From Cryptosporangium phraense (GTDB taxonomy: Bacteria > Actinomycetota > Actinomycetes > Mycobacteriales > Cryptosporangiaceae): a DNA stretch of 64,000 nucleotides. How positions within the stretch are numbered: position 1 is the stretch's first letter; the number at the start of each line of letters is the position of its first letter. Below are positions 23,523-42,861 of this stretch, piece by piece. Both the position numbers and the translations under genes were made by a program. The notes under the pieces were generated by a model, which was given only the letters and a program-made list of their open reading frames with translations, was not told the origin of the DNA and ran no database searches. The stretch covers positions 248,001 through 312,000 of the forward strand of contig NZ_VIRS01000001.1 of NCBI RefSeq assembly GCF_006912135.1, given 5' to 3'.

Positions 23523-26246
23523 CCAGGCCCAGTGACCGGGGTCGGCGAACGGCGCGCGGGACTCGGCGCGTTCGGTGACGACGGCCAGGGCGGCGGCGTC
23601 CAGGTCGGGGCGTTCGGCGGCCCAGGCGAGCAGGTCGTCGCCGGACGAGGTGCGGGCGCATTCCTGGGCCGCGTGCACGGCGGTGTAGACGTCGGCGCCG
23701 TCGGCCAGCGCGTCGGCGAGCCAGGTCGTGAGCACCGCGCCGGTCAGCGCGTCGACCGGGCGGGTGCTCGCGACGACCGCGGTGGCGCCGGCCCGGAGCA
23801 GCGTCGCGACGATCGGCGCGGGGACGGCGGCGCGGTCACCCGGGGCGAGCAGCACCGTCACCCCGGCCCAGGGCAGGGTGGCCAGGCGGGGCGGGGCGAG
23901 CCGGTCGGGCGAGCCGTCCGGACCGGCGAGCAGCAGGCCGCTGCGCCGCGGACGACGCGGGTCGGTGACGACCGGGACGGCCAGGTGCAGGAGCGGGGTC
24001 CCGGCCAGCGCGCCGGCGAGGCGGTCGGCGGTGACGGCCGGGCCGCAGATCGGCGTGGTGCCGAGGGTGCGGGCGGCGTGGGCGGCCGCGACCCGGGCGA
24101 ACGGCTGGTCCCCGAGCGGATCCGCGAACACCCACCCGGGCCCGCGCCCCGCGGGTGCGCCCGGCCCGCCTGCCGCGGCGGACCCCGGCCCATCGAGCAG
24201 CTCGGGCAGAACGGAGACGTCGGCCGAGGCGAACCGGGCCGACGGCAGGGAACCGGGGGCGACCAGCCGCACCGGGCCGGCCAGGCCGTCGAGCACCTCG
24301 CGGAGCTTCCGATCCACGGCCGACCCGGGCGCCCACTCTTCGAGCGCGATCGCCTCGGCCACCACCGGGACGTCAGGGGCAGCCGTGAGCAGATGGATAC
24401 TCCGCACTCCCGCGAACGCCACGACCAGCGTCGCCCCGCCCCGACCCGACCCGGAGCCGTCGGCGCGTTCGAGCAGCGCCAGCGCCTCGTCCGGACGTCC
24501 GAGCACGACCGAGGCCTCGGCGGCGTCCGCATAGGGCATGGTCGGCAGGGATCCGGCGCCGCGGGCGCGGAGCTCGTCGGCGGCGGCGCAGGCGTCGGCG
24601 AGCGTCGCCGCGGTGGACTCGGTGACCGTGCCGTCGACGAGGTCGAGCCGTCCCAGCGTGCCCTGCGCCGCCAGGCGCACCACCGGATCGTCGCTCGAGC
24701 CGAGCGCGACCAGCCGCTCGCGCAGCGGGGCGACCTCGGCGCCGCGGTCGGCGTCGACCAGGAATCGGACGAGCGCGGCCAGGGCCTCGGCCAGCGCCGC
24801 CGCCGCGCCCGGCGGCGCGAGGCCCGCCACCGCGAGGTGGCGGCCGGCCTCGGCCGACCCGACCGCCTCGCGCAGGTACTGCTCGGTGAGCGCGTCCGCG
24901 CCGTAGCGACGGCAGACCTCGGCCGCGGCCGCGGCGAGCTCGGTCAGCGTGACGCTGTCGGCGCCGCCGAGCTCGGCCAGAGCCCGGGCCCGCGGCACGA
25001 GCTCGAGCACCGCCAGCTCGGCGGCCAGCCGGCACTGGCCGACGATCGCGACGAGCTCGGTGCGGGCGTCCCCGAGCGCCGCGGCCTGGGTCCGGGCCCG
25101 CTCCAGCAGCCCCCAGGCGGCCGCGTCGTCGCCGCGGAGCAGCGCGAGCCGCCCCTGCCCGGCCCAGACCCGCGGCAGCACGTGGGCCGCGCCCAGCGAC
25201 GACCACATCACGTCGGCGAGCTGCAGCTTCGCGTCCGCGTCGGCCAGGCGGTACTCGGCCAGCAGCGCCTCGGCCTCCTCCAGCGACCGCATCCCGACCG
25301 TCGCCGGTGCGCCGACCGCGACCACCGACGCGACGTCGGGCCGCAGACCCTGGGTCACGGCCTCGGCGGCCGCGCGGAACGCCGGGTGGGCGGTCGTCGG
25401 CAGCTGACCCGCGGCCGCGCGGCGCTGCGTCTCGGCCTCGACCGCCCGGACGCGCGCCGCGTAGCCCTCGGTGTAGTGCTGCGGGTCGGGGGCGACGGAC
25501 CGGGAGCGGGCCAGGTCGTGGGCGCGGACGAACGCGTCGGCCGCGGTCGGCGGGTCGCAGTCCCGGGCCGCGCCGGCCAGCGCGACGACCGCGGTGTACT
25601 CGTCGGACGGGGACTCGGCCTCGCGGAGGAGCGCGGCCGCGGCCCGGAGCCGCTCGACGCCGGGCTCGACCCGGCCGCGGCGGCAGAGCTCCCGGCCGAG
25701 CGAGAGCAGCATCGTGGCCCGGTCGGCCGGGGCGACGCCGGGCTGGTCGAGCGCCTCCTGGTAGTAGCCGGCGGCGCGCGGGTCGTCGGCCCGGGCGAGC
25801 AGGTCGGCGTAGTTGCGCAGGACCGTCACCCGGCCCGGGCCGGGCGGAACCGTGCGGACCAGCTGGACGGCCTGCCGGAAGTAGCCGTCGGCGCGCTCCA
25901 GGTCGGAGGCCGCGAGCTCGACGAACGCCATCCCGCTGACCGCGGCCCCGGCCAGGTGCGGGTCGCCCAGCGCCTCGGCGACGTCGAGCGCGGCGCTGTA
26001 GTAGCCGCGGGCCGCGTCGAGCCGGCCCGACGTGCGGGCGCACTGGCCGAGCAGCCGGTAGGCGAGGAACCCGTTGGTGTGCGGGCCGACCTCGGTGACC
26101 AGCGGCAACGCCCCGGCCAGGAGTTGTTCGGCCTCTGTCGCGCGGCCCTGTTCGAGCAGCGTGTGGCCGCGGACGACGTGATCGCGGAGCGCGGCTTCGG
26201 GGGTGACGTCGGGGTGCCGACGCTCCCGCCGACCCCTACCGAACAT
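23499..26246 (-). CDS. TPR protein with C-terminal CHAT-like domain lacking catalytic residues
   Basis: 915 residues from ATG 26246. The N-terminal two thirds are TPR-like helical repeats (for example LLEQGRATEAEQLLAGALPL and SDLERADGYFRQAVQLVRTV). The C-terminal 200 residues align with CHAT caspase-like domains: the end pattern GATAVVASTRPVDALTGAVL and HWAWLTAYGLR is typical. Yet the usual HLACHG is LLHLAVPVV and the usual LSAC.TG is VLLAPGDR, so both the catalytic His and Cys are absent. It is thus probably a binding or scaffold pseudo-protease. Divergent from the AAA ATPase at 26364 across 117 bases. Confidence 0.8.
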   Translation of the reverse strand: MFGRGRRERRHPDVTPEAALRDHVVRGHTLLEQGRATEAEQLLAGALPLVTEVGPHTNGFLAYRLLGQCARTSGRLDAARGYYSAALDVAEALGDPHLAGAAVSGMAFVELAASDLERADGYFRQAVQLVRTVPPGPGRVTVLRNYADLLARADDPRAAGYYQEALDQPGVAPADRATMLLSLGRELCRRGRVEPGVERLRAAAALLREAESPSDEYTAVVALAGAARDCDPPTAADAFVRAHDLARSRSVAPDPQHYTEGYAARVRAVEAETQRRAAAGQLPTTAHPAFRAAAEAVTQGLRPDVASVVAVGAPATVGMRSLEEAEALLAEYRLADADAKLQLADVMWSSLGAAHVLPRVWAGQGRLALLRGDDAAAWGLLERARTQAAALGDARTELVAIVGQCRLAAELAVLELVPRARALAELGGADSVTLTELAAAAAEVCRRYGADALTEQYLREAVGSAEAGRHLAVAGLAPPGAAAALAEALAALVRFLVDADRGAEVAPLRERLVALGSSDDPVVRLAAQGTLGRLDLVDGTVTESTAATLADACAAADELRARGAGSLPTMPYADAAEASVVLGRPDEALALLERADGSGSGRGGATLVVAFAGVRSIHLLTAAPDVPVVAEAIALEEWAPGSAVDRKLREVLDGLAGPVRLVAPGSLPSARFASADVSVLPELLDGPGSAAAGGPGAPAGRGPGWVFADPLGDQPFARVAAAHAARTLGTTPICGPAVTADRLAGALAGTPLLHLAVPVVTDPRRPRRSGLLLAGPDGSPDRLAPPRLATLPWAGVTVLLAPGDRAAVPAPIVATLLRAGATAVVASTRPVDALTGAVLTTWLADALADGADVYTAVHAAQECARTSSGDDLLAWAAERPDLDAAALAVVTERAESRAPFADPGHWAWLTAYGLR

Positions 26247-33196: not shown

Positions 33197-34627
33197 TCAC
33201 TCGCTAGCGGTCTCCCGGACGGCCCGCACCTCGGCGATCCTGGCCGCGGTCGGGTCGAGCCAGGGGCCGGTCGGCAGCGCGGGCGGGCCGCCCTCGGAGT
33301 CGACCGTGCACAGCGGCAACCGCTCCCCCAGGTACCGCAGCAGCAACGAGCCGAGCACCGCGGCCAGCAGCGACCCGGCCAGCACGCCGATCTTCGCGTC
33401 CTGGCGCAGCGCCTCGTCGTCGAACGCCAGGTCGGTGATGAACAGCGCGATCGTGAACCCGATCCCGCACAGGACGGCCCCGCCGATCAGGTGCCCGTAC
33501 CGCACCCGCCCGGGCAGCGCCCCTAATCCGGTCTTCAGGGCCAGGCCGGCCAGCAGCGAGATCCCGATCGCGTTGCCGACCACCAGCGCCACCGCGACCC
33601 CGATCGTCACCCGCGAGGTCGACGCGTCCCGCAGCGTCTCCCAGTCCAGTGGCACCCCGGCGTTGGCCAGCCCGAACAGCGGCAGCACGACCAGCGCGCT
33701 GACCGGGTGCAGCGCGTCCTGGAGGCGCTCGTTGGAGCTCAGCGTCGCCCGGGCCGCGGTGTTCGCGAGCCGGACCCGGGCCGGGGTCGCGGCCTCGATC
33801 ACGGCCCGGCCGTAGTAGGCCAGCCGCTGCCGCTGGGACGGGTCCACCGCGGCGGCCGGCACGATCAGCCCGAGCAGCGCCCCGGCCAGCGTCGGGTGCA
33901 CGCCGGACTCGAACACGGCCACCCACAGCGCCGCGCCGACCAGCAGATACGGCGCCAGCTGCCAGACCCCGGCGAACCGCAGACCGAGCAGCACCACGAC
34001 CAGGATCGCGGCCATCCCGAGCGCGCTCGTCGAGACGTGGTCGCTGTAGAACACGGCCATGACGCTGATCGCGCCGATGTCGTCGACGATCGCCAGCGTC
34101 AGCAGGAACAGCCGCAGCTGGTCCGGGCAGCGCGGCCCGAACAGCGCCAGGACGCCGACCAGGAACGCGGTGTCGGTCGAGATCGGGATGCCCCAGCCCG
34201 CGGCGGCCGGGCCGCTCGGCTGGATCAGGAAGTAGATCAGCGCCGGGAACGCCAGCCCGCCGATCGCGCCCAGTGCGGGCACGATTACGGTGCGCCGGTC
34301 GCGCAGCTCACCGACCGTCACTTCACGGCTGATCTCCAGCCCGACGACGAGGAAGAAAATGGACATCGCCGCGTCGTTGACGAAGTGCTGCAGGTCGAGC
34401 TCGAGCGCCCAGGAGCCGACCCGGATCGACGACTCGACGTGCCAGAAGCTCTCGTAGGTGTCGCCGGGCAGGTTCGCCCAGACCAGCGCGGCCACGGTGG
34501 CGATCAGCAGCACCGCGGCGCTGCCGGCCTCCCGGTTGAGGAACTCCCGGACCGCGGGCGAGAGGTACGGCAACCCGATCCGCGGGGCCGGCCCCGGCCG
34601 CGCCGGAATCGGTAGAGAGCTGGTCAC
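33197..34627 (-). CDS. nhaA: Na+/H+ antiporter NhaA
   Basis: 476 residues from GTG 34627; a GTG at 34678 would add 17 unusual residues. NhaA hallmarks: AVREFLNREAGSAAVLLIAT, WHVESSIRVGSWALELDL, FVNDAAMSIFFLVVGLEISR, GIPISTDTAFLVGVLALFG, and the paired ion-binding aspartates in LTLAIVDDIGAISVMAVF. Exchanges sodium for protons to keep pH and sodium balance. It starts 55 bases (or 4) after the MFS gene on the same strand, so it may be the tail of the NUDIX operon. Convergent with the DsbA-like gene, seven bases apart. Confidence 0.93.
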   Translation of the reverse strand: MTSSLPIPARPGPAPRIGLPYLSPAVREFLNREAGSAAVLLIATVAALVWANLPGDTYESFWHVESSIRVGSWALELDLQHFVNDAAMSIFFLVVGLEISREVTVGELRDRRTVIVPALGAIGGLAFPALIYFLIQPSGPAAAGWGIPISTDTAFLVGVLALFGPRCPDQLRLFLLTLAIVDDIGAISVMAVFYSDHVSTSALGMAAILVVVLLGLRFAGVWQLAPYLLVGAALWVAVFESGVHPTLAGALLGLIVPAAAVDPSQRQRLAYYGRAVIEAATPARVRLANTAARATLSSNERLQDALHPVSALVVLPLFGLANAGVPLDWETLRDASTSRVTIGVAVALVVGNAIGISLLAGLALKTGLGALPGRVRYGHLIGGAVLCGIGFTIALFITDLAFDDEALRQDAKIGVLAGSLLAAVLGSLLLRYLGERLPLCTVDSEGGPPALPTGPWLDPTAARIAEVRAVRETASE

Positions 34628-34682
34628 GGCGCCTAGGCTGCCAGACCGCACCTGAATCGAACACGTCGCGGTCGTCACATGG

Positions 34683-35957
34683 TCAGGCCGGTCCGCGCGA
34701 CGCGGAGCGGATCGCCGGGAGGACGGCGAGGGTGGTGAGCAGCATCAGCGCGGCGAAGACGAAGAACGGGGCCGGGAGGCCGGCCAGCCGGGCGATGGCG
34801 CCGCCGCCCAGGCCGCCGACGGCCAGGCCGCCCAGCGCGACCGTGAAGTAGACCGCGTTGACCCGGCCCAGCAGCTCGGAGGGCACCAGCCGCTGGCGCA
34901 GCGACACGATCACCACACTGAGCACGAGCACCACGAACCCGTCGACCGCCAGGGCGGCCGCGGCCAGCGCCGGGCTCCGGACGAGCCCGAGCGCGGCCAC
35001 CGCACCGGCCGAGATCACCGACGTGACGAGGATCAGCACGGGCGCCGGGACCCGCCGGGCGATCCGGTCGGCGACCAGGCCGCCGGCCACCGCGCCGATC
35101 GCGCCCACCGCGAGCATCACCCCGTAGCCGCGCGGGCTGACGTTCAGCCGCTGGTCTCCGACCAGCACCAGCAGTCCGTAGCTGGCCCCGGTCATCGCGT
35201 TCCCGACGCCGGACAGGAAACTCAGACTGCGGACGACCGGGGAGCGCCAGTACCAGTGGGCACCCGTCCGGATGTCGGCCCAGAGCGACCGGCGCTCGGC
35301 CGGCTCGCCACCGGGGGCCGAGCGCGGCAGCAGCGTGAGCACGGCCAGGCTGGCGACCAGCCCCAGCGAGCCGGCCGCGAACGGCAACGCGAGCGCGATC
35401 GCCAGCAGGAACCCGCCGATCGGCGGCCCGGCGAACTCGTTCAGCGCGACGAACGTCGTCTGGATCCGGCCGTTGGCCTTCTCCAGCCCGTCCGACGGGA
35501 CCAGCGCGGGCACCAGCGCCGCGGACGCGTTGTCGAACAGCGTCTCGCAGGTACCGAGGACGACGAACACGACGTAGAGCAACGGCATCGACGCGAACCC
35601 GAGCGCGACCGACACCGCGAGCGCGCCGAGCGTCACCGCGCGGACGCCGGTCGCCGCGCGAACCACCGTGCGCCGGTCGGCGCGGTCGACGATCGCGCCC
35701 GAGACCAGCGAGAACAGCCAGGGCAGACGCTGCGCGACCGTGAGCCCGGCGATCGCGACCGGGTCGCTGGTCAGCGTGGCCGCGAGGAGCGGGGCGGCGG
35801 CCAGGTTGACGCCGTCGGCCAGGTTCGAAATGCCGACCGCGGCCCAGAGCGTCCGGAATGGATCTGTTCGCACCTGTGGCATTCTCCGGGGCGGCCGGGC
35901 CGGCCCGACACGGGGGCGGAGGCCGGCCAGCGGGTCCGGACGCGCGACGGCGCTCAT
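34683..35957 (-). CDS. MFS transporter at the end of the NUDIX/VWA/PurA-like operon
   Basis: 424 residues from ATG 35957, whose bases overlap the TGA of the PurA-like gene (ATGA), so it is translationally coupled. Twelve membrane segments; TLWAAVGISNLADGVNLAAA at the start and IVDRADRRTVVRAATGVRAV as the motif A loop place it in the enterobactin-exporter-like DHA3 group. Coupling to a nucleotide-ligase-like gene suggests that it exports, or confers resistance to, a small molecule made by the operon; that is inference. Confidence 0.88.
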   Translation of the reverse strand: MSAVARPDPLAGLRPRVGPARPPRRMPQVRTDPFRTLWAAVGISNLADGVNLAAAPLLAATLTSDPVAIAGLTVAQRLPWLFSLVSGAIVDRADRRTVVRAATGVRAVTLGALAVSVALGFASMPLLYVVFVVLGTCETLFDNASAALVPALVPSDGLEKANGRIQTTFVALNEFAGPPIGGFLLAIALALPFAAGSLGLVASLAVLTLLPRSAPGGEPAERRSLWADIRTGAHWYWRSPVVRSLSFLSGVGNAMTGASYGLLVLVGDQRLNVSPRGYGVMLAVGAIGAVAGGLVADRIARRVPAPVLILVTSVISAGAVAALGLVRSPALAAAALAVDGFVVLVLSVVIVSLRQRLVPSELLGRVNAVYFTVALGGLAVGGLGGGAIARLAGLPAPFFVFAALMLLTTLAVLPAIRSASRGPA

Positions 35958-37177
35958 GGTACGAGGGCTCGACGCAGGACGGCCGGCCCGCTGGGCGAGT
36001 CGGTACCCAGCACGACCGGGACGCCGAGCACGGCCTCGATCTCGGTGACCCGGTCGGCCGGGCGGTAGACGCCCCGGGCGGTGGTTCCGGTCAGGGTGTT
36101 CGTGAGCCGTTCCTGGGCGGCCAGGTCGCCGCGGGTGCCCACCGGGATGCGGGTCCAGCCGTTGGCGTACTCCGGGCAGATCCCGAGGGCCGGGTCGGCC
36201 GCGTCCAGGTGGGTCACGGCCAGCGCGTCCACTCCCCCGCACACGTCCACCGCGTACCGGTGCGCGACCGCGTCGAAGTGGCCGCGCCGGAACTCGCCCT
36301 GCCAGGCTCCGGTGCCGTTGTGCCGCTCGGGCAGGTCCAGCGCCCGGTCCTCGGTGACGTGCGGGCCGGCGCCGTGCCGGGTCGTGTACGTCCGGACGAC
36401 GCCGAGCCGTTCCGCCCGGGCGCCGGCCAGCAGCGTCTCCGCGTTGGCGAACGTCGTCGTCGACCAGGTCGTGTGCGGGTGCCAGCCGAACCACTCGTCG
36501 AGCAGGACGCCCTGCGCGCCCTCGAACACGCACCGCCCGGACGCCAGCAGCCCGCCGAGGTGGCCGGAATCCACGATCGTCACCGCGTCCCGGAACGCCG
36601 CGAAGACCGCGACGACGTCGTCCAGCGGCGGAGCGTCCAGAGGGCCGTTCGACGCGGTCAGCCGGTCGCGGACCGCGGCCAGGCGGGACCGCAGGCGGGG
36701 CGGGTCCAGCACGTCCCCGACCCGCGGGGCCTCGGCCGGGTGCGCGAGCCCGTAGGCGACGGTCTCGCCGACGCCGAGCCCGCAGCTCCCGTGCCGGCCG
36801 GCGCCCCGGCAGCGTTCCCGGGCCCGGTTCGCCGCCCGGTGCCACGGGGTCGCGAGCAACGCGTCGGCGTCGATCGTCAGCAGCCGGAACGGGTCGCGGA
36901 CGCCGACCGACGCGAGGTGGGCGGCCTCGGCCGCCAGCGCCAGCGGGTCGACGACGACGAACCGGGACAGGTGGGTCGGCACGCCCCGGAACGTGCCCGA
37001 CCCGAACTGCGCGAACGTGTGGTGCCGGCCATCCGGGAGCACGACGTTGTGCGCGGCCTGGGCGCCGCCGTTGAACCGGACGACGGCTTCCACGTCGGAT
37101 TCGGCGCAGAGCAGGTCGACGACCCGCCCCTTGCCCGCGTCGCCGTAGCCCAGGTCGACGACGATCGTGTGGGTCAC
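35954..37177 (-). CDS. Adenylosuccinate synthetase paralogue (PurA/PurZ-like)
   Basis: 407 residues from GTG 37177 (GTGA overlap with the VWA gene). The P-loop reads VDLGYGDAGKGRVVDLL, where housekeeping PurA has QWGDEGKGK: Asp and Lys are kept, Glu is Ala and Trp is Tyr. Other blocks are kept: RFNGGAQAAHNVVLP (His), VVRTYTTRHGAGPHVTE, AVTHLDAADPALGICPEY. The C-terminal GTP-base region (GTDSPSGPAVLRRALVP) differs from the usual one. It should join an amino acid to a purine-like nucleotide using GTP or ATP; because the context is signalling-like and not purine synthesis, a different product is likely. Confidence 0.85.
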   Translation of the reverse strand: MTHTIVVDLGYGDAGKGRVVDLLCAESDVEAVVRFNGGAQAAHNVVLPDGRHHTFAQFGSGTFRGVPTHLSRFVVVDPLALAAEAAHLASVGVRDPFRLLTIDADALLATPWHRAANRARERCRGAGRHGSCGLGVGETVAYGLAHPAEAPRVGDVLDPPRLRSRLAAVRDRLTASNGPLDAPPLDDVVAVFAAFRDAVTIVDSGHLGGLLASGRCVFEGAQGVLLDEWFGWHPHTTWSTTTFANAETLLAGARAERLGVVRTYTTRHGAGPHVTEDRALDLPERHNGTGAWQGEFRRGHFDAVAHRYAVDVCGGVDALAVTHLDAADPALGICPEYANGWTRIPVGTRGDLAAQERLTNTLTGTTARGVYRPADRVTEIEAVLGVPVVLGTDSPSGPAVLRRALVP

Positions 37178-38142
37178 AACCGCACGCTCCCCGAGCCGCC
37201 GCGGGACCGGGGCAGCGCCGCCCGCACCGGACGCCCGCGCCGGCGCACGGCCCGGCTGTACGGGGTCAGCGCCTTGCCGACGGTCCGGACGGCCGACGAG
37301 CCCAGGTCGGCCAGGTCGGCCAGGCCGGCGTCGAGGTCGGTCGTGTCCTCGTTCAGCCCGATCGTGAGCGCGATCGTCTCGCAGACCGCGTCGAGGTCGT
37401 CGAGCTCGAGCACGTTCTCGCCGAGCAGATCGCGCCAGCGCTTCAGCACGGTCCGGTCGCCGGCGTAGGCCGTGCCGGCCGGGAGCAGGTAGTAGACGTG
37501 GTAGTTGCGGGTCAGCTCGGCGACCAGCGTCTCGGTTCGGATGTCCTCGGAAATACGATCGCCGATCACGTCGCGGACCTCCCGCGCCTTCACCGACCGG
37601 TACGGCAGCTCGTCGCCGATCAGGAAGACGTAGCCCTTGCGGCCGTGCCGCTTGGCGTCCGTGTCGGTGTGCCGGGCCAGGAAGTACATCGCGAGCTCGT
37701 AGGACTCCGTCTTCTGGCCGCCGCCACCGCCCTCCAGGACGATGTTCGCCAGGTCGTCGTCCATCCGGTTGTCGGACTCGAACTGGCCGATCTGCAGCGG
37801 CACCCGGTCGCAGGTGGCGTCGCCCACCGCGCCGAACAGGATCTGCGGGTCGGTGCAGTAGCCCTTGCGCAGCAGCAGGCCGAGTAACTGCGGCAGCTTC
37901 GTCTGCAGCACCCGGGGCACGCCACCCATCGAGCCGGTGACGTCGAACAGCACCGCGATCGGCGTGCTGGCCGGGTGTTCGGCCGAGTCCCGGCTCTCCC
38001 GGACCGTGACACCGCGCGGGTCGAGGCTCGGGTGGACGGTGCGGGCGCCGCTGTCGCTGTAGGCGAAGGCGCTCCGGCCGGTGGCCGCGCGGAAGTTCTC
38101 GGCCGCGGTGTAGACGTCGGTGGACCAGCGTCCGCTTCCCAT
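37174..38142 (-). CDS. VWA-domain protein (TerY-like)
   Basis: 322 residues, ATG 38142 with AAGGAG upstream. After about 60 residues comes the VWA domain: PIAVLFDVTGSMGGVPRVLQ holds a MIDAS variant (DxTGS), followed by GGGGGQKTESYELAMYFLAR and KGYVFLIGDELPYRSV. The C-terminus (RRRGRPVRAALPRSRGGSGS) is basic and low-complexity. VWA proteins of this kind bind partners through a divalent metal. The kinase-like gene ends 10 bases upstream and the PurA-like gene overlaps downstream. Confidence 0.88.
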   Translation of the reverse strand: MGSGRWSTDVYTAAENFRAATGRSAFAYSDSGARTVHPSLDPRGVTVRESRDSAEHPASTPIAVLFDVTGSMGGVPRVLQTKLPQLLGLLLRKGYCTDPQILFGAVGDATCDRVPLQIGQFESDNRMDDDLANIVLEGGGGGQKTESYELAMYFLARHTDTDAKRHGRKGYVFLIGDELPYRSVKAREVRDVIGDRISEDIRTETLVAELTRNYHVYYLLPAGTAYAGDRTVLKRWRDLLGENVLELDDLDAVCETIALTIGLNEDTTDLDAGLADLADLGSSAVRTVGKALTPYSRAVRRRGRPVRAALPRSRGGSGSVRL

Positions 38143-38152
38143 GGTGTTCTCC

Positions 38153-39073
38153 TTAAGCGGGGACGGAAAATTCGCGGAACCTGCGCGGGCCGTAGAGCCG
38201 GTGCAGGAGGTCGTCGAGCTCGGCCAGCAGGCGCCAGGCGTCCTGCGGGCGCATCCGGGGCCGGGCCAGGCGGCACCCGTCGGCGAAACGGCGCAGCGCG
38301 GGGTGCACGCGCGGCCCCATCAGCCGGAGCATCAGCCCCGAGGCCAGGTACAGGTCGGTCGCCGGGGTGGCCGGCTCCTTCGCCGGCACTTCCGGCGGGT
38401 AGGCGTCGCGGTAGCGCGCGACCAAGGCCGGGATCGGCCCGCGGCCGATCACCGCGTAGCACCAGTCGACGATCACCAGGCCGTGTTCGGCCGGGTGGAT
38501 CAGCACGTGCTCGGGCAGCACCGCGCCGTGCACGACGCCGGCCCGGTGGGCGGCCCCGAGCGCGACCAGGAGCCGGCGCCACATCCAGGCCGCATCCCTG
38601 GGGTCGAGGCCGTCGGGGTAGGCCCGCTCGACCTCGGCCAGCGACACGAACCCGGCGCAGTGTTCGAGCACGTTGGCGGCGCGCCGGTCGCCGTCGTCGT
38701 CCATGACGAGCGTGTCGAAGAGACGCGGGAAGAAGGCCGGCTTCTGCTTCCGGCGCCGGAGGACCGCCGCCTCGGTCTCGAGCAGGTCGTTGTCGGCCGG
38801 GTCGCGGGCCACCTTGAGCAGCGCGGTGCCCTTGGCCGAACGCACCCGGAAGAGGTCGGCCAGGTCGCCGGTGATCGGGTCACCGAGCACGGTGTAGGGC
38901 CCGATCCGGCTCTCCCACAGCTCAGTCAGCCGGGTGAACGCCGAGGTCGCGATGCCCTCGCTGCCGAGAGGGGCGGCATCGGGATGCACGATCCGGCGCA
39001 GGCGCCGGTAGTCGGCATCGGTGATCGTTTCGGCGGCGAAGATCAGGTGCACGGCGTCCTCGAAATCGGTCAC
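38153..39073 (-). CDS. J-domain-like plus protein-kinase-like fusion lacking the catalytic Asp
   Basis: 306 residues from GTG 39073 (GTGA overlap with the NUDIX stop). Residues 1-55 resemble a J-domain with the diagnostic HPD at 30-32 (DYRRLRRIVHPDAAP). A kinase fold follows: Lys87 in ALLKVARDP, helix C Glu near 99-101, then AGVVHGAVLPEHVLI where HRDxKxxN should be (no catalytic Asp), and VDWCYA in place of DFG. It may therefore be a pseudokinase or use an unusual mechanism. The C-terminal helical part (ALRRFADGCRLARPRMRPQD) fits a kinase C-lobe. Confidence 0.8.
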   Translation of the reverse strand: MTDFEDAVHLIFAAETITDADYRRLRRIVHPDAAPLGSEGIATSAFTRLTELWESRIGPYTVLGDPITGDLADLFRVRSAKGTALLKVARDPADNDLLETEAAVLRRRKQKPAFFPRLFDTLVMDDDGDRRAANVLEHCAGFVSLAEVERAYPDGLDPRDAAWMWRRLLVALGAAHRAGVVHGAVLPEHVLIHPAEHGLVIVDWCYAVIGRGPIPALVARYRDAYPPEVPAKEPATPATDLYLASGLMLRLMGPRVHPALRRFADGCRLARPRMRPQDAWRLLAELDDLLHRLYGPRRFREFSVPA

Positions 39074-39825
39074 CGCACGTCCTCCTCCGACGTCGGGCGG
39101 AGCAGCGGCGGGTGCAGCACCCGGGCGTCGCCGGCCCGGTAGAGCTTGGCCCGCGGGCCGCCCCGGTCGCCGCCGCGCGCGGTCGTCGTCCCGGTGCCCT
39201 CGACGAAACCCGGCACCGACAGCACCTTGCGGTGGAAGTTGCCCGCGTGCAGGTCCTCGCCCCAGACCGCCGCGTAGACCGCGCGCAGTTCGGCGATCGT
39301 GAACTCCGGCCCGACGAACGCGGTGGCCAGCGGCGAGTACTCGAGCTTGGCCCGGGCCCGCTCCAGGCCGTCGGCCAGGATCCGGCTGTGGTCGAACGCG
39401 AGGCGCGCCTCGCTGATCGTCGCGACCGGCACCCAGGCCGCTCCGGCGGCGTCGCCGCCGGGCCGGGGGTCGGGCAGGCTCGGCGCGAACGCGAGGTAGG
39501 CCACCGACACGACGCGCATCCGTGGGTCTCGCCCCGGATCGCCGTAGCTCTTCAACTGCTCCAGGTGGACGCGAGCCAGCCGGCCGTTCGTGGCGTCGAG
39601 ACCGGTCTCCTCGGCGAGTTCGCGCAGAGCCGCGTCGTCGAGGGTCTCGTCGCCGACGAAGCCGCCCGGCAGCGCGAGCCGGGACCTGAACGGGGCCGCC
39701 CCCCGCTCGACCAGCAGTACCGACAGCACCCCGTCGCGGATCGTCAGCGCGACGACGTCGACCGAGACCGCGACCGCCGGGTAGTCGCGGGGGTCGTAGG
39801 CCTCCAGGAACGCTCGCTCGTTCAT
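39070..39825 (-). CDS. NUDIX hydrolase with C-terminal winged helix (NrtR-like)
   Basis: 251 residues from ATG 39825. The NUDIX box is complete: GGFVGDE, seven residues, RELAEETGL. The C-terminal segment (EYSPLATAFVGPEFTIAELR, then FHRKVLSVPGFVEGTG) is the winged helix of the NrtR family, which binds ADP-ribose and regulates NAD genes; in many NrtR proteins the box is degenerate, here it looks active. First gene of the operon and probably its own regulator through the inverted repeat at 39835-39875. Confidence 0.88.
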   Translation of the reverse strand: MNERAFLEAYDPRDYPAVAVSVDVVALTIRDGVLSVLLVERGAAPFRSRLALPGGFVGDETLDDAALRELAEETGLDATNGRLARVHLEQLKSYGDPGRDPRMRVVSVAYLAFAPSLPDPRPGGDAAGAAWVPVATISEARLAFDHSRILADGLERARAKLEYSPLATAFVGPEFTIAELRAVYAAVWGEDLHAGNFHRKVLSVPGFVEGTGTTTARGGDRGGPRAKLYRAGDARVLHPPLLRPTSEEDVR

Positions 39826-39909: not shown

Positions 39910-41013
39910 GTGCGGATCCTGTTCTGTGGACGGCCGGCGTACGGACACCTCTATCCGCTCCTCCCGCTCGCGTTCGCGGCCCGGGCGGCCGGGCACACGG
40001 TGGTGTTCGCGACCGGCGCGGACTTCGTCGGGAAGCTGGCCGGGTACGGCTTCGACGCCCGCGAGGCGGGCATCAGCGTCGGGGCCGCCGAGGCCGAGGC
40101 GACCCGGCGCCACCCCAACGGGCCGGTCGTCGACGTCCTCGTGACGATGTTCGCCGACGTCCTCCCCCGGCGGACGATGCCGGACGTCCACTACCTGCTC
40201 TCGCTCATCAAGCCCGACCTGGTCGTCTACGAGATGAGCGACGTCGGGGCCGCGGGCGCCGCCCGCCGGGCCGGGGTGCCGTGCGTGTCGGTGACGATCG
40301 GGCGCTCGATGCCGGCCGGGATCCTGGCCGTCGCCGAACCGCACCTGAACTGGATCTGGAACGGCCGTCCGCCGGCCGACCCGATGCTCGGTGACGCCGT
40401 GCTCGACTTCTGGCCGGCGTCGATCGCCGACCCGGCGCCGTTGGCGGTGCCCACCCGGTTCCCGATCCGGCCGGTGCCGTGGAGCCCGCCCGGCCGGTGG
40501 GAGTCGCCGGGCACGCCGCTGGTGTATCTGACGCTCGGCACGGTCTCGTACGGCAAGACCGACGTGTTCCGGGCGGCGATCGAAGGCCTGGCCGGGTTAC
40601 CCGTCCAGGTCGTGGTCGCGGTCGGTCCCGGCGACCCGTCGGCGCTCGGCTCGGTGCCGAGTAACGTCCGCATTGCGCAGTTCGTACCGCAGGACCAGGT
40701 GCTGCGGGACGCAAGCGTCGTGGTGCACCACGGCGGCAGCGGGACGACGCTGGGCGCGGCCGCGCACGGCCTGCCGCAGCTGATCCTGCCGCAGGGCGCG
40801 GATCAGTTCGTGAACGCCGAGGTGATCAGCGCGCAGGGGTCGGGCCTGACGCTGGCCGAGGACGACCTGAGCCCGGGCACGGTCGCCGCGTGCGCGCTCG
40901 CGCTCCTGGGTGAACCGGTGCACCGCGCGACCGCCCAGGTTCTGCGCGACGAGATCGCCGCGATGCCGTCGCCGGCCGACGCGCTCGAGGCCCTTCAGGG
41001 CTACGTCACATGA
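39910..41013 (+). CDS. MGT/UGT-type glycosyltransferase
   Basis: 367 residues from GTG 39910. The GT-B fold is apparent: FCGRPAYGHLYPLLPLAFAA at the start, and the donor-binding signature VVHHGGSGTTLGAAAHGLPQ with LILPQGADQFVNAEVISAQG near the end, matching macrolide/antibiotic glycosyltransferases (GT1). It transfers a nucleotide-activated sugar to a small molecule, acceptor unknown. Divergent from the NUDIX operon by 84 bases; if the operon makes a nucleoside-like compound, this could decorate it, but that is speculation. Confidence 0.9.
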   Translation: MRILFCGRPAYGHLYPLLPLAFAARAAGHTVVFATGADFVGKLAGYGFDAREAGISVGAAEAEATRRHPNGPVVDVLVTMFADVLPRRTMPDVHYLLSLIKPDLVVYEMSDVGAAGAARRAGVPCVSVTIGRSMPAGILAVAEPHLNWIWNGRPPADPMLGDAVLDFWPASIADPAPLAVPTRFPIRPVPWSPPGRWESPGTPLVYLTLGTVSYGKTDVFRAAIEGLAGLPVQVVVAVGPGDPSALGSVPSNVRIAQFVPQDQVLRDASVVVHHGGSGTTLGAAAHGLPQLILPQGADQFVNAEVISAQGSGLTLAEDDLSPGTVAACALALLGEPVHRATAQVLRDEIAAMPSPADALEALQGYVT

Positions 41014-41205
41014 GTCACTTGACTAGCCATTGGTTCCGTGGTCTTCGCCGCTCGTGGCGCGCATTGTCGCTCTGAGCTGCGGAGATCTCAAGGTTGCTCG
41101 CAAATGGAGAATGTGGCCCACGTCACATAGCTGATCCTCGGGCGTTCTGTGCACGTCCCCCGGGTTGACCACGCTCACGGTTATTTCCATCGTGGAGGAA
41201 CCCGG
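41014..41205. other. 192-base non-coding gap before DUF4331 gene
   Basis: The gap contains AGTCACTTGACT (41013-41024), a small dyad just after the glycosyltransferase stop, and GTCACAT twice (41005 and 41123 regions). GTGGAGGA just upstream is the ribosome site for ATG 41206. No ORF with coding character and no RNA gene is seen; promoter of the DUF4331 gene presumably lies here. Confidence 0.4.
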
Positions 41206-42861
41206 ATGACGACGACGCCGCTGCCGACGAGTACCCCGTCAGGGGCTCCGCCAACCGGGCGGCGTCTGCGCCGGACCGCAGCCGGTCTGGCCGTTGGAGG
41301 GATCGCGCTGGTGACCGCGCTCACCGGTTTCGGACCGATGACCGCGCAGGGCTCGAGCCACCGCGAAGCACCGTTGATCGCCGCCGACCCGGCCGTCGAC
41401 AACACCGACTTCTACGCGATGGCCAGCCCCGACACCCCCGGCTCGATCCTGCTGATCGCGAACTTCCAGCCGTTCGAGGAGCCCAACGGCGGCCCGAACT
41501 TCTACCCGTTCGCGACCGACGCCGCCTACAAGATCAACATCGACAACGACGGCGACGCCAAGCCCGACGTCGTCTTCCGGTGGACGTTCAAGAACCAGGA
41601 CAAGCGCGGGAACGACACGTTCCTCTACAACAACGGGCCGGTCACGTCGATCAACGACGAGAACCTGCTATTCAAGCAGACCTACACGCTCGACGTCTCG
41701 CAGGACGGCGGCCGCCGCTACAGCCAGACGATCGTCCGCAACGCGCCGGTCGCGCCGTCGTTCGTCGGCAAGGCGTCGATGCCCGACTACAAGAAGCTGC
41801 GCGACCAGGCGATCGTCAAGAAGGGCAAGGTCAAGGCGTTCGCCGGCCAGGCCGACGACCCGTTCTTCGCCGACCTGCGGGTCTTCGACCTGCTGTACGG
41901 CGGCGACCTCAGCGAGGTCGGCCAGGACACGCTGGGTGGCTACAACGTCAACTCGATCGCGCTGCAGGTGCCGGCCGAGGCCCTCGCGTTGCGCGGAAAC
42001 GTGAAGCGCAACCCGGCCGTCGGCCTGTGGTCGACCACCGAGCGCAACAAGGTCCGGATCTCGGGCAACACCAAGGCGTCGCTCGGCAACGACACGGTGC
42101 AGGTCTCCCGGCTGGGTAACCCGCTGGTCAACGAGGTCGTGCTGCCGGCCGGACTGAAGGACGCGTTCAACGCTCTCCGTCCGGATCAGGATGCGGACGT
42201 GAAGGAAGCGGTCGATCGGGTCACCGATCCGGAGCTGCCGAAGCTGATCGAGCAGATCTACAAGATCCCGGCGCCGGACGCTCCGCGCGACGACCTGGTG
42301 GAGATCTTCCTGACCGGGTTGGCGAAGAAGGCCGACGGCCCGATCGACGTGGACCTGAACTCGCAGCTGCTGAACAAGGACGTCAATGCCAAGAAGTTCC
42401 GGGCGTCGGAGATGCTGCGGCTCAACCTGACGAACAAGCACAACACCAAGCCGAACCGGCTGGGGCTGCTCGCCGGTGACACCGAGGGCTTCCCGAACGG
42501 CCGTCGCCTCGGCGACGACGTCGTCGACATCGCGATCCAGGCGATGGAGGGTGCGGCTCAGAACGGCAAGCTGGTGGACGCGCTGGCCGCGGGCGACAAG
42601 GTGAACGCGAACGATGCTCGGTTCGAGCGGCAGTTCCCGTTCGTCGCGCTGCCGAACGAGGACGGCGTGAACGTCGGTGCGGGTCACACGTCGACCGTGA
42701 ACCGGGCGGCCACTCAGTCGTTGGGTGCCACCGGGGTATCGGCGATCACCGCGGCGTCGACGACCGCGATCCTGTGTGCGGTGGCCGGGTTCGTCGCCTG
42801 GTTCCGTCGCCGCCCGACGACCGCGACGCTCCCGTCGCGGCGGGGTGGGCACCGCCGGTAG
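41206..42861 (+). CDS. Secreted, membrane-anchored DUF4331 protein
   Basis: 551 residues from ATG 41206. Signal peptide LRRTAAGLAVGGIALVTALT, then the family start GSSHREAPLIAADPAVDNTD and FYAMASPDTPGSILLIANFQ. Asp-rich loops such as NIDNDGDAKPDVVFRWTF may hold Ca2+. A single C-terminal hydrophobic segment (ITAASTTAILCAVAGFVAWF) plus RRRP is a stop-transfer anchor, so the protein faces outward. Function unknown; it is commonly found with a TPR protein and a nickel/cobalt-transporter-like protein, as here. Confidence 0.9.
   Translation: MTTTPLPTSTPSGAPPTGRRLRRTAAGLAVGGIALVTALTGFGPMTAQGSSHREAPLIAADPAVDNTDFYAMASPDTPGSILLIANFQPFEEPNGGPNFYPFATDAAYKINIDNDGDAKPDVVFRWTFKNQDKRGNDTFLYNNGPVTSINDENLLFKQTYTLDVSQDGGRRYSQTIVRNAPVAPSFVGKASMPDYKKLRDQAIVKKGKVKAFAGQADDPFFADLRVFDLLYGGDLSEVGQDTLGGYNVNSIALQVPAEALALRGNVKRNPAVGLWSTTERNKVRISGNTKASLGNDTVQVSRLGNPLVNEVVLPAGLKDAFNALRPDQDADVKEAVDRVTDPELPKLIEQIYKIPAPDAPRDDLVEIFLTGLAKKADGPIDVDLNSQLLNKDVNAKKFRASEMLRLNLTNKHNTKPNRLGLLAGDTEGFPNGRRLGDDVVDIAIQAMEGAAQNGKLVDALAAGDKVNANDARFERQFPFVALPNEDGVNVGAGHTSTVNRAATQSLGATGVSAITAASTTAILCAVAGFVAWFRRRPTTATLPSRRGGHRR

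Follow-up and report, generated by a model that had tools for sequence, protein, structure and literature searches.

A conserved gene module of bacteria and phages containing a paralogue of adenylosuccinate synthetase

Two described groups of proteins are among those closest to the operon analysed here. Predicted ADP-ribose systems contain Nudix-helix-turn-helix (HTH) regulators and sometimes a vWA protein, described in the text of PMC9503650 as a Mg2+-dependent peptide-binding chaperone. PurZ, the phage 2-amino-adenylosuccinate synthetase, has Ser in place of Asp13 (PMC12884076, section 24). The operon lies in a 64,000-nucleotide stretch of Cryptosporangium phraense (contig NZ_VIRS01000001.1, positions 248,001 to 312,000; 'the window' below, numbered from its own first base) and encodes a NUDIX-winged-helix protein, a J-domain-like kinase, a VWA protein and a ligase resembling adenylosuccinate synthetase (PurA). 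In bacteria, where some copies are on plasmids, these genes are conserved and inherited together as a unit; phages have the unit too, usually lacking the NUDIX gene. We propose, at a probability of roughly 0.4, that they constitute an inducible four-gene module whose PurA-derived ligase makes or restores a non-standard purine nucleotide tied to stress involving nicotinamide adenine dinucleotide (NAD) or ADP-ribose. A literature search aimed at the module or its parts returned no account of the gene set, though subscription papers were mostly outside that search. The same module recurs in many actinobacteria and in about 190 mycobacteriophage records, and its sole clear enzyme looks like one of purine synthesis.

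Results

Operon structure and conservation

A reading made from the sequence alone had taken five genes, from NUDIX to an MFS transporter, as one unit. The coordinates confirm this (Table 1): NUDIX/kinase, VWA/PurA and PurA/MFS each overlap by 4 bp and kinase and VWA are 10 bp apart, with a further gap of 4 bp between MFS and the following NhaA gene. Conservation is confined to the first four genes, which form a self-contained module. The MFS and NhaA proteins both score above their Pfam cut-offs.

Table 1. Positions in the window of the operon, its operator and adjoining genes
Feature	Position	Strand	Remarks
NUDIX-winged-helix gene	39070-39825	minus	first gene of operon
J-domain-like kinase gene	38153-39073	minus	second gene
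VWA gene	37174-38142	minus	third gene
PurA-like ligase gene	35954-37177	minus	fourth gene
MFS transporter gene	34683-35957	minus	PF05977, 119 bits; local accessory
NhaA Na+/H+ antiporter gene	33197-34678	minus	PF06965, 443 bits; local accessory; 4 bp downstream of MFS
31-bp operator TTCTC-N5-GAG-N5-CTC-N5-GAGAA	39840-39870	minus	14 bp upstream of NUDIX start
Glycosyltransferase and DUF4331 protein genes	39910-42861	plus	divergent from operon; kept in 3/3 genus mates

To assess co-occurrence we compared 80 loci from GTDB, the best 80 of 439 (18 genera) and hence biased to close relatives. NUDIX was found in 80/80 (one cut by a contig end), the kinase in 73/80, PurA in 79/80 and all four genes in 73/80, and the genes found shared one strand at every locus. 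Junctions recurred as well: NUDIX and kinase overlapped by 4 bp in 57/73, kinase and VWA were separated by 8-12 bp in 41/73, and VWA and PurA overlapped by 4 bp in 71/79. These counts retain L078, where a contig end cuts NUDIX, L038, where NUDIX lies 2.5 kb from the kinase, and L072. The last is a decayed module, in which PurA was not found, the kinase is a remnant and three operator-like sites have 3 mismatches each.

A fairer test came from 296 genomes sampled evenly across the class. Here the VWA protein and the PurA paralogue occurred in the same 28 genomes and were adjacent in 28/28. The kinase was seen at 26 of these loci; of the two without it, one is truncated by the end of its contig. 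The 28 exclude G141 (VWA match at an E value of 9.7e-4, not among the PurA matches); a match in G750 (E value 1.4e-4) stands in one tally and is not credible. A phylum sample searched with the VWA alignment yielded 2/396 genomes; the module's frequency thus depends on sampling, since this sample is far poorer than that of the class. The order kinase-VWA-PurA-NUDIX was found in Tsukamurella, on a Rhodococcus plasmid and at L152 and L154, in two genomes of the taxonomic order to which the window belongs; at L153 NUDIX was on the opposite strand. On three alphaproteobacterial plasmids NUDIX was divergent and the kinase was detected by a hidden Markov model, one of them (L129) showing no PurA. The gene set persists while gene order varies. 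Distances between gene pairs were correlated (Mantel r 0.79-0.96, reached by 0/2000 permutations), although relatedness makes the sequences non-independent and the long-branch rows of the tree are unsure. Homologues are not scattered without co-occurrence, and the co-occurrence, like the operator results below, is far beyond chance.

A PurA paralogue with altered substrate pockets

The paralogue might still be an adenylosuccinate synthetase, perhaps with altered regulation, that rebuilds adenylates from inosine monophosphate (IMP) or inosine triphosphate after stress or a nucleotide-depleting defence. Its family match is clear (PF00709 at 197.5 bits, over the Pfam cut-off), and Asp13, Lys16, His41 and Gln224 (E. 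coli PurA numbering throughout) were present in 84/84 bacterial and plasmid ligases; the P-loop, Thr239 and Asp333 of PurA are likewise retained. A few phages pair the ligase with NampT and NMNAT-like genes, as described below, which would fit nucleotide-pool repair. However, the two highest-scoring NCBIfam PurA models give it 150 and 113 bits, where 402 and 396 would be required, and the genome of the window, the only one checked on this point, also encodes a canonical PurA (602 bits compared with 197 for the paralogue) that has the E. coli residues at the sites changed in the paralogue. The PurA-like gene is thus not the only adenylosuccinate synthetase of its genome.

The pocket positions differ from those of PurA. 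Asn38, Thr129 and Arg143, which we take from their roles in E. coli PurA to contact the IMP phosphate, are altered: Asn38 is Gln and Thr128-Thr129 is Ser-Cys in 84/84 ligases, and Arg143 is generally lost, Arg being found in only 3/84. In Thr300-Thr301-Gly-Arg303, presumably the aspartate loop as in E. coli PurA, Thr300 is Trp in 82/84 (Tyr in 2), Thr301 is Gln in 84/84, one residue is deleted and Arg303 is lost. Val273 is His in 84/84 and Lys331 is His in 82/84. The 33 phage ligases, compared in a second alignment, kept Asp13 (33/33) and showed much the same substitutions (Val273 to His in 33/33, Asn38 to Gln in 31/33, Thr129 to Cys in 28/33 and Lys331 to His in 24/33). Judged by these alignments, the catalytic set for phosphoryl transfer is kept amid conserved changes at nucleotide- and amino-acid-pocket positions, a pattern that suggests PurA chemistry with different substrates. 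We consider a surviving adenylosuccinate synthetase unlikely. A role in ordinary purine synthesis is likewise unlikely, as the earlier reading had supposed. The phage gene is currently annotated as PurA-like or as a 2-aminooxy adenylosuccinate synthetase; assignment to normal PurA is disfavoured by the rewritten pockets, and assignment to PurZ by the retained Asp13, which is Ser in the phiVC8 PurZ of our alignment.

A NUDIX protein and a dedicated operator

The first protein of the operon exceeds the Pfam cut-offs for both PF00293 (69.6 bits) and PF21906, the NrtR-type winged helix (38.9 bits), in keeping with its initial description as NrtR-like, and scores 113 bits against NCBIfam NF050029 (NrtR), under the cut-off of 400. 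Its Nudix box is complete, with residues conserved at 94-100% in 87 sequences. We predict that it is a dedicated repressor or sensor. One phage NUDIX-NrtR protein (L187:4252-5415) carries about 120 extra N-terminal residues, with no Pfam match there.

A 31-bp operator (Table 1) was found as a shared element of the upstream regions across loci. In the window it has 0 mismatches and is the sole site at up to 4 mismatches. At up to 2 mismatches it was present at 77/81 actinobacterial loci and stood before NUDIX at 74/81; it was before the kinase or VWA only at L038, L071 and L088, and four loci had none. The Streptosporangium loci L071, L088 and L098 carry the operator before VWA, and L098 has one before NUDIX too. 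Across the 8.46-Mb genome the window operator is the only close match, each of the nine next sites having 3 mismatches; the scan gave 10 sites compared with 6 matches per strand for a reversed-pattern control, which places those nine near control level. This single close operator would be a dedicated switch for its own operon. A -10-like TAnnnT box ends within 6 nt of the operator at 65/77 loci (shuffle mean 3.6, maximum 12), and 38/77 have in addition a TTGA/TTGT box at a suitable distance (mean 0.09 and maximum 1 in shuffles). Because these boxes adjoin it, the operator sits where a repressor would act, and we infer that the NUDIX protein is what binds there.

A J-domain-like probable pseudokinase and a VWA protein

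By sequence the kinase is marginal (Pfam Kdo, 23.4 bits against a cut-off of 21.3). Its structural model aligns with PknB over 225 residues (Z score 25.3, root-mean-square deviation (rmsd) 2.0). No Pfam DnaJ match was found at the N terminus; an HPD motif, kept in 92-94% of 86 kinase sequences, sits there between model helices 19-29 and 39-54, as in a J-domain. In the same 86 sequences the HRD motif reads HGA, with Ala in 98%, so that the protein is probably a pseudokinase, as first proposed. It keeps the beta3 Lys (98%) and the alphaC Glu (99%) and may bind nucleotide.

For the VWA protein neither Pfam (E value up to 0.1) nor a profile search against solved chains (E value up to 1) returned a relative. 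Its model aligns with the integrin beta I domain over 205 residues (Z score 16.4, rmsd 3.8), and MIDAS-type motifs (DxTxS, GGGG and GDE) occupy columns conserved at 92-100%, DxTxS and GDE being kept in 99-100% of 99 sequences. The original VWA/MIDAS assignment therefore stands although Pfam gave no match: the model supports a VWA/integrin-I fold with a putative metal motif. In Mycobacterium phage Darko the VWA protein has 594 residues (L189:1501-3282) and contains an intein-like insertion just before the GDE motif, with weak Hint and Intein_splicing matches under the cut-off. Two-piece VWA matches occur in 17/60 listed phage rows, among which the insertion was examined in Darko.

Kinase and VWA folds, present in two of the four proteins, often serve protein or peptide binding. 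The ligase could modify a macromolecule, joining an activated purine onto a protein or peptide or altering a purine within RNA or DNA, while the VWA and J-domain proteins present the substrate. That no fifth gene is conserved, no further gene cluster occurring at more than 29/81 loci, would suit such a scheme, except that a partner enzyme could be missed, most neighbouring clusters being unannotated. Known PurA enzymes, moreover, use free mononucleotides, and we judge modification of a macromolecule improbable.

Phage copies of the module

Searches with tblastn matched PurA, VWA and the kinase each in 190 mycobacteriophage records, RefSeq and GenBank copies being counted apart. In Sebata (Bixzunavirus) the order is kinase-VWA-small gene-PurA. 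PurA and VWA, in separate searches, each matched 10 Rhizobium and 6 Vibrio phage records; in the one Rhizobium and one Vibrio phage examined VWA adjoins PurA, and the kinase was not found there. All four core proteins matched in PHROGs, with long alignments to phrog_1211 (PurA-like), phrog_2971 (VWA) and phrog_3043 (kinase), and NUDIX matching the general NUDIX family. Among 36 phage loci compared, PurA was present in 34, the kinase in 29 and NUDIX clearly in 4; L176 and L180 are not independent of L003.

Some phages place NAD genes within the module. L118, L119 and L187 have the order NUDIX-NampT-VWA-PurA-kinase-NMNAT-like, with weak NMNAT-like matches, giving an NMNAT-like gene in 3/36 loci, and at L172 NampT lies between VWA and PurA. 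Records of 14/36 loci were searched for NampT and NADAR, and the other loci were covered for NADAR by one phmmer query. NampT was single-copy in four contigs (512, 417, 208 and 11 kb) and inside the module in 4/4; the other 10/14 records had none. NADAR was within 8 kb of the module at five loci (L113, L122, L164, L172 and L187), overlapping the kinase by 4 bp at L113. Together with the NUDIX-winged-helix protein, this subset of phages suggests an NAD/ADP-ribose setting. L118:2252-4291, upstream of the module in a large phage, encodes a deoxynucleotide monophosphate kinase and a protein that resembles deoxyribosyltransferases and has a weak match of NUDIX type.

Phage carriage also raises the question of whether the bacterial module is an anti-phage defence, with phage copies captured or serving as counter-defence versions. 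Its patchy spread (28/296 genomes), its presence on plasmids and a regulator of nucleotide-sensing type are all in line with this. The kinase resembles PADLOC defence kinases, but weakly: it hit 16 models with a best score of 28 bits, NUDIX hit one (E value 0.056) and the other two proteins none. No recognised effector is among the four proteins, the neighbourhoods not having been scanned for defence genes, and the module occupies a conserved place within the genus. We assign a defence role a low probability.

Neighbouring genes

Neither MFS nor NhaA had a tblastn match at E values up to 1e-4 in 98 other loci. Among three genus mates, one has both genes, one has NhaA only (and also lacks the kinase) and one has neither; MFS thus recurs in 1/3 and NhaA in 2/3. 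Both were rejected as core parts on these grounds, contrary to the suggestion that they belonged to the system, which weakens the idea that the operon makes and exports a product. That the operon is a small cluster for a nucleoside antibiotic or self-resistance, with the MFS pump as exporter, is correspondingly very improbable. MFS does share 4 bp with PurA in the window and comes after PurA in one genus mate, but it goes unmatched in the 98 loci and in 2/3 mates, and on one Rhodococcus plasmid the annotated MFS gene is separated from the kinase by about 5 kb on its upstream side.

In all three genus mates the operator is retained and the glycosyltransferase and DUF4331 genes flank the module as in the window, and the module is therefore probably inherited vertically within the genus. 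A small Cys-rich DUF1540 gene accompanies the module, on one side or the other, at 29 loci (for example L064:10389-10679); all of them are Actinoplanes, Paractinoplanes or Winogradskya, and we treat it as a lineage neighbour and not a part. Elsewhere in the window, positions 24001-26000 have 79.5% G+C compared with 73-75% in the adjoining 2-kb steps.

Discussion

In the mechanism we favour for an inducible module making or restoring a non-standard purine nucleotide, the NUDIX-winged-helix protein would repress its own operon and be released once it binds or hydrolyses a ligand formed under stress, ADP-ribose-like or another nucleoside diphosphate. The PurA-like enzyme would activate the 6-oxo group of a purine nucleotide with a nucleoside triphosphate and then couple an amine other than aspartate, or use a nucleotide other than IMP, giving a new or restored non-standard N6-substituted purine nucleotide. 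The J-domain pseudokinase and the VWA protein would perform no chemistry and would instead act as binding partners for the ligase, for its substrate or for a client of Hsp70. Under stress, and when phage and host are in conflict, the product might have a part in NAD/ADP-ribose homeostasis or signalling; such a role would account for phages carrying the ligase set and for the few that couple it to NampT and NMNAT-like genes. That the module makes or senses an unusual nucleotide is our best guess.

Several observations weigh against this proposal. The pocket roles are ones we carried over from E. coli PurA, for the IMP-phosphate residues and the aspartate loop alike, and gap placement in that loop is ambiguous, a later placement retaining Arg305. 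The window promoter shows no well-spaced -35 box (TTGA/TTGT). At up to 3 mismatches no operator was found in phage, plasmid and kinase-first loci (L003, L113-L129 and L152-L154; the phage scan left out L164-L187), so the operator belongs to the NUDIX-first actinobacterial form. The kinase appears dispensable, being absent from 7/80 GTDB loci and one genus mate. As for NAD, NampT is inside the module in only 4/36 phage loci and NADAR nearby in only 5/36, and in three of the eight records with NADAR it lies away from the module. In Sebata, the single Bixzunavirus annotation examined, neither NampT nor NADAR stands beside the module. NampT, NMNAT and NADAR were matched in 0/87 bacterial loci by tblastn, in which distant phage queries could miss some; the NAD link consequently rests on phages.

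In a bolder version the ligase would stand next to PurA and PurZ as a third functional branch of their family, building a novel N6-substituted purine mono- or dinucleotide (its substrate being, for instance, a hypoxanthine form of NAD or ADP-ribose) that is sensed by NUDIX, assisted by the J-domain pseudokinase and VWA, and shared by bacteria and phages as a metabolite system in NAD conflicts; we hold this doubtful. Should the module make a new nucleotide, bacterial stress or phage-host conflict would gain a metabolite, and the PurA/PurZ family a third branch. The dedicated operator is a ready reporter for the inducing signal, and phages of Mycobacterium smegmatis are a tractable place to delete the gene set.

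The sequence-only reading thus holds for the single unit, its probable role outside ordinary purine synthesis, the co-occurrence of its genes and the second PurA, and finds no support for MFS and NhaA as parts or for a proposed kinship with tellurite (Ter) systems. Like Ter and other VWA-kinase-nucleotide systems, the module has a VWA protein beside a nucleotide-metabolism gene. No operon protein matches a Ter family in Pfam, a negative that covers the operon and not its wider surroundings, and we rejected Ter membership because no TerD/TerC/TerB-type partner is among the operon proteins.

Comparison with other known systems gives a similar picture of shared parts. The ligase has in common with PurA its fold family, P-loop, Asp13, His41, Gln224, Thr239 and Asp333, and differs in Asn38 to Gln, Thr129 to Cys, Val273 to His, Thr300-Thr301 to Trp-Gln, the loop deletion and Lys331 to His. 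PurZ and the module ligase are both phage-carried PurA paralogues, but the latter keeps Asp13 in every bacterial, plasmid and phage sequence aligned (84/84 and 33/33) and is accompanied by VWA and usually the kinase. The regulator has the NUDIX domain and PF21906 winged helix of NrtR, whereas it falls far under the NCBIfam cut-off and has one close operator genome-wide, at its own operon. We take NARP2 to be the name for phage NAD+ reconstitution by NampT and NMNAT; four phage contigs recall it in having NampT in the module, three of them with an NMNAT-like gene, unlike bacterial modules, near which neither was matched (0/87). The ADP-ribose systems of PMC9503650, as far as its text extends, also join a Nudix-HTH regulator and a vWA protein in one neighbourhood, but centre on an ADP-ribosylglycohydrolase and are presented without PurA or adenylosuccinate; their predictions fit the roles proposed here for the regulator and VWA, and not the enzyme. 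We rate the module as a member of no known system, built of proteins that each fall within a known superfamily.

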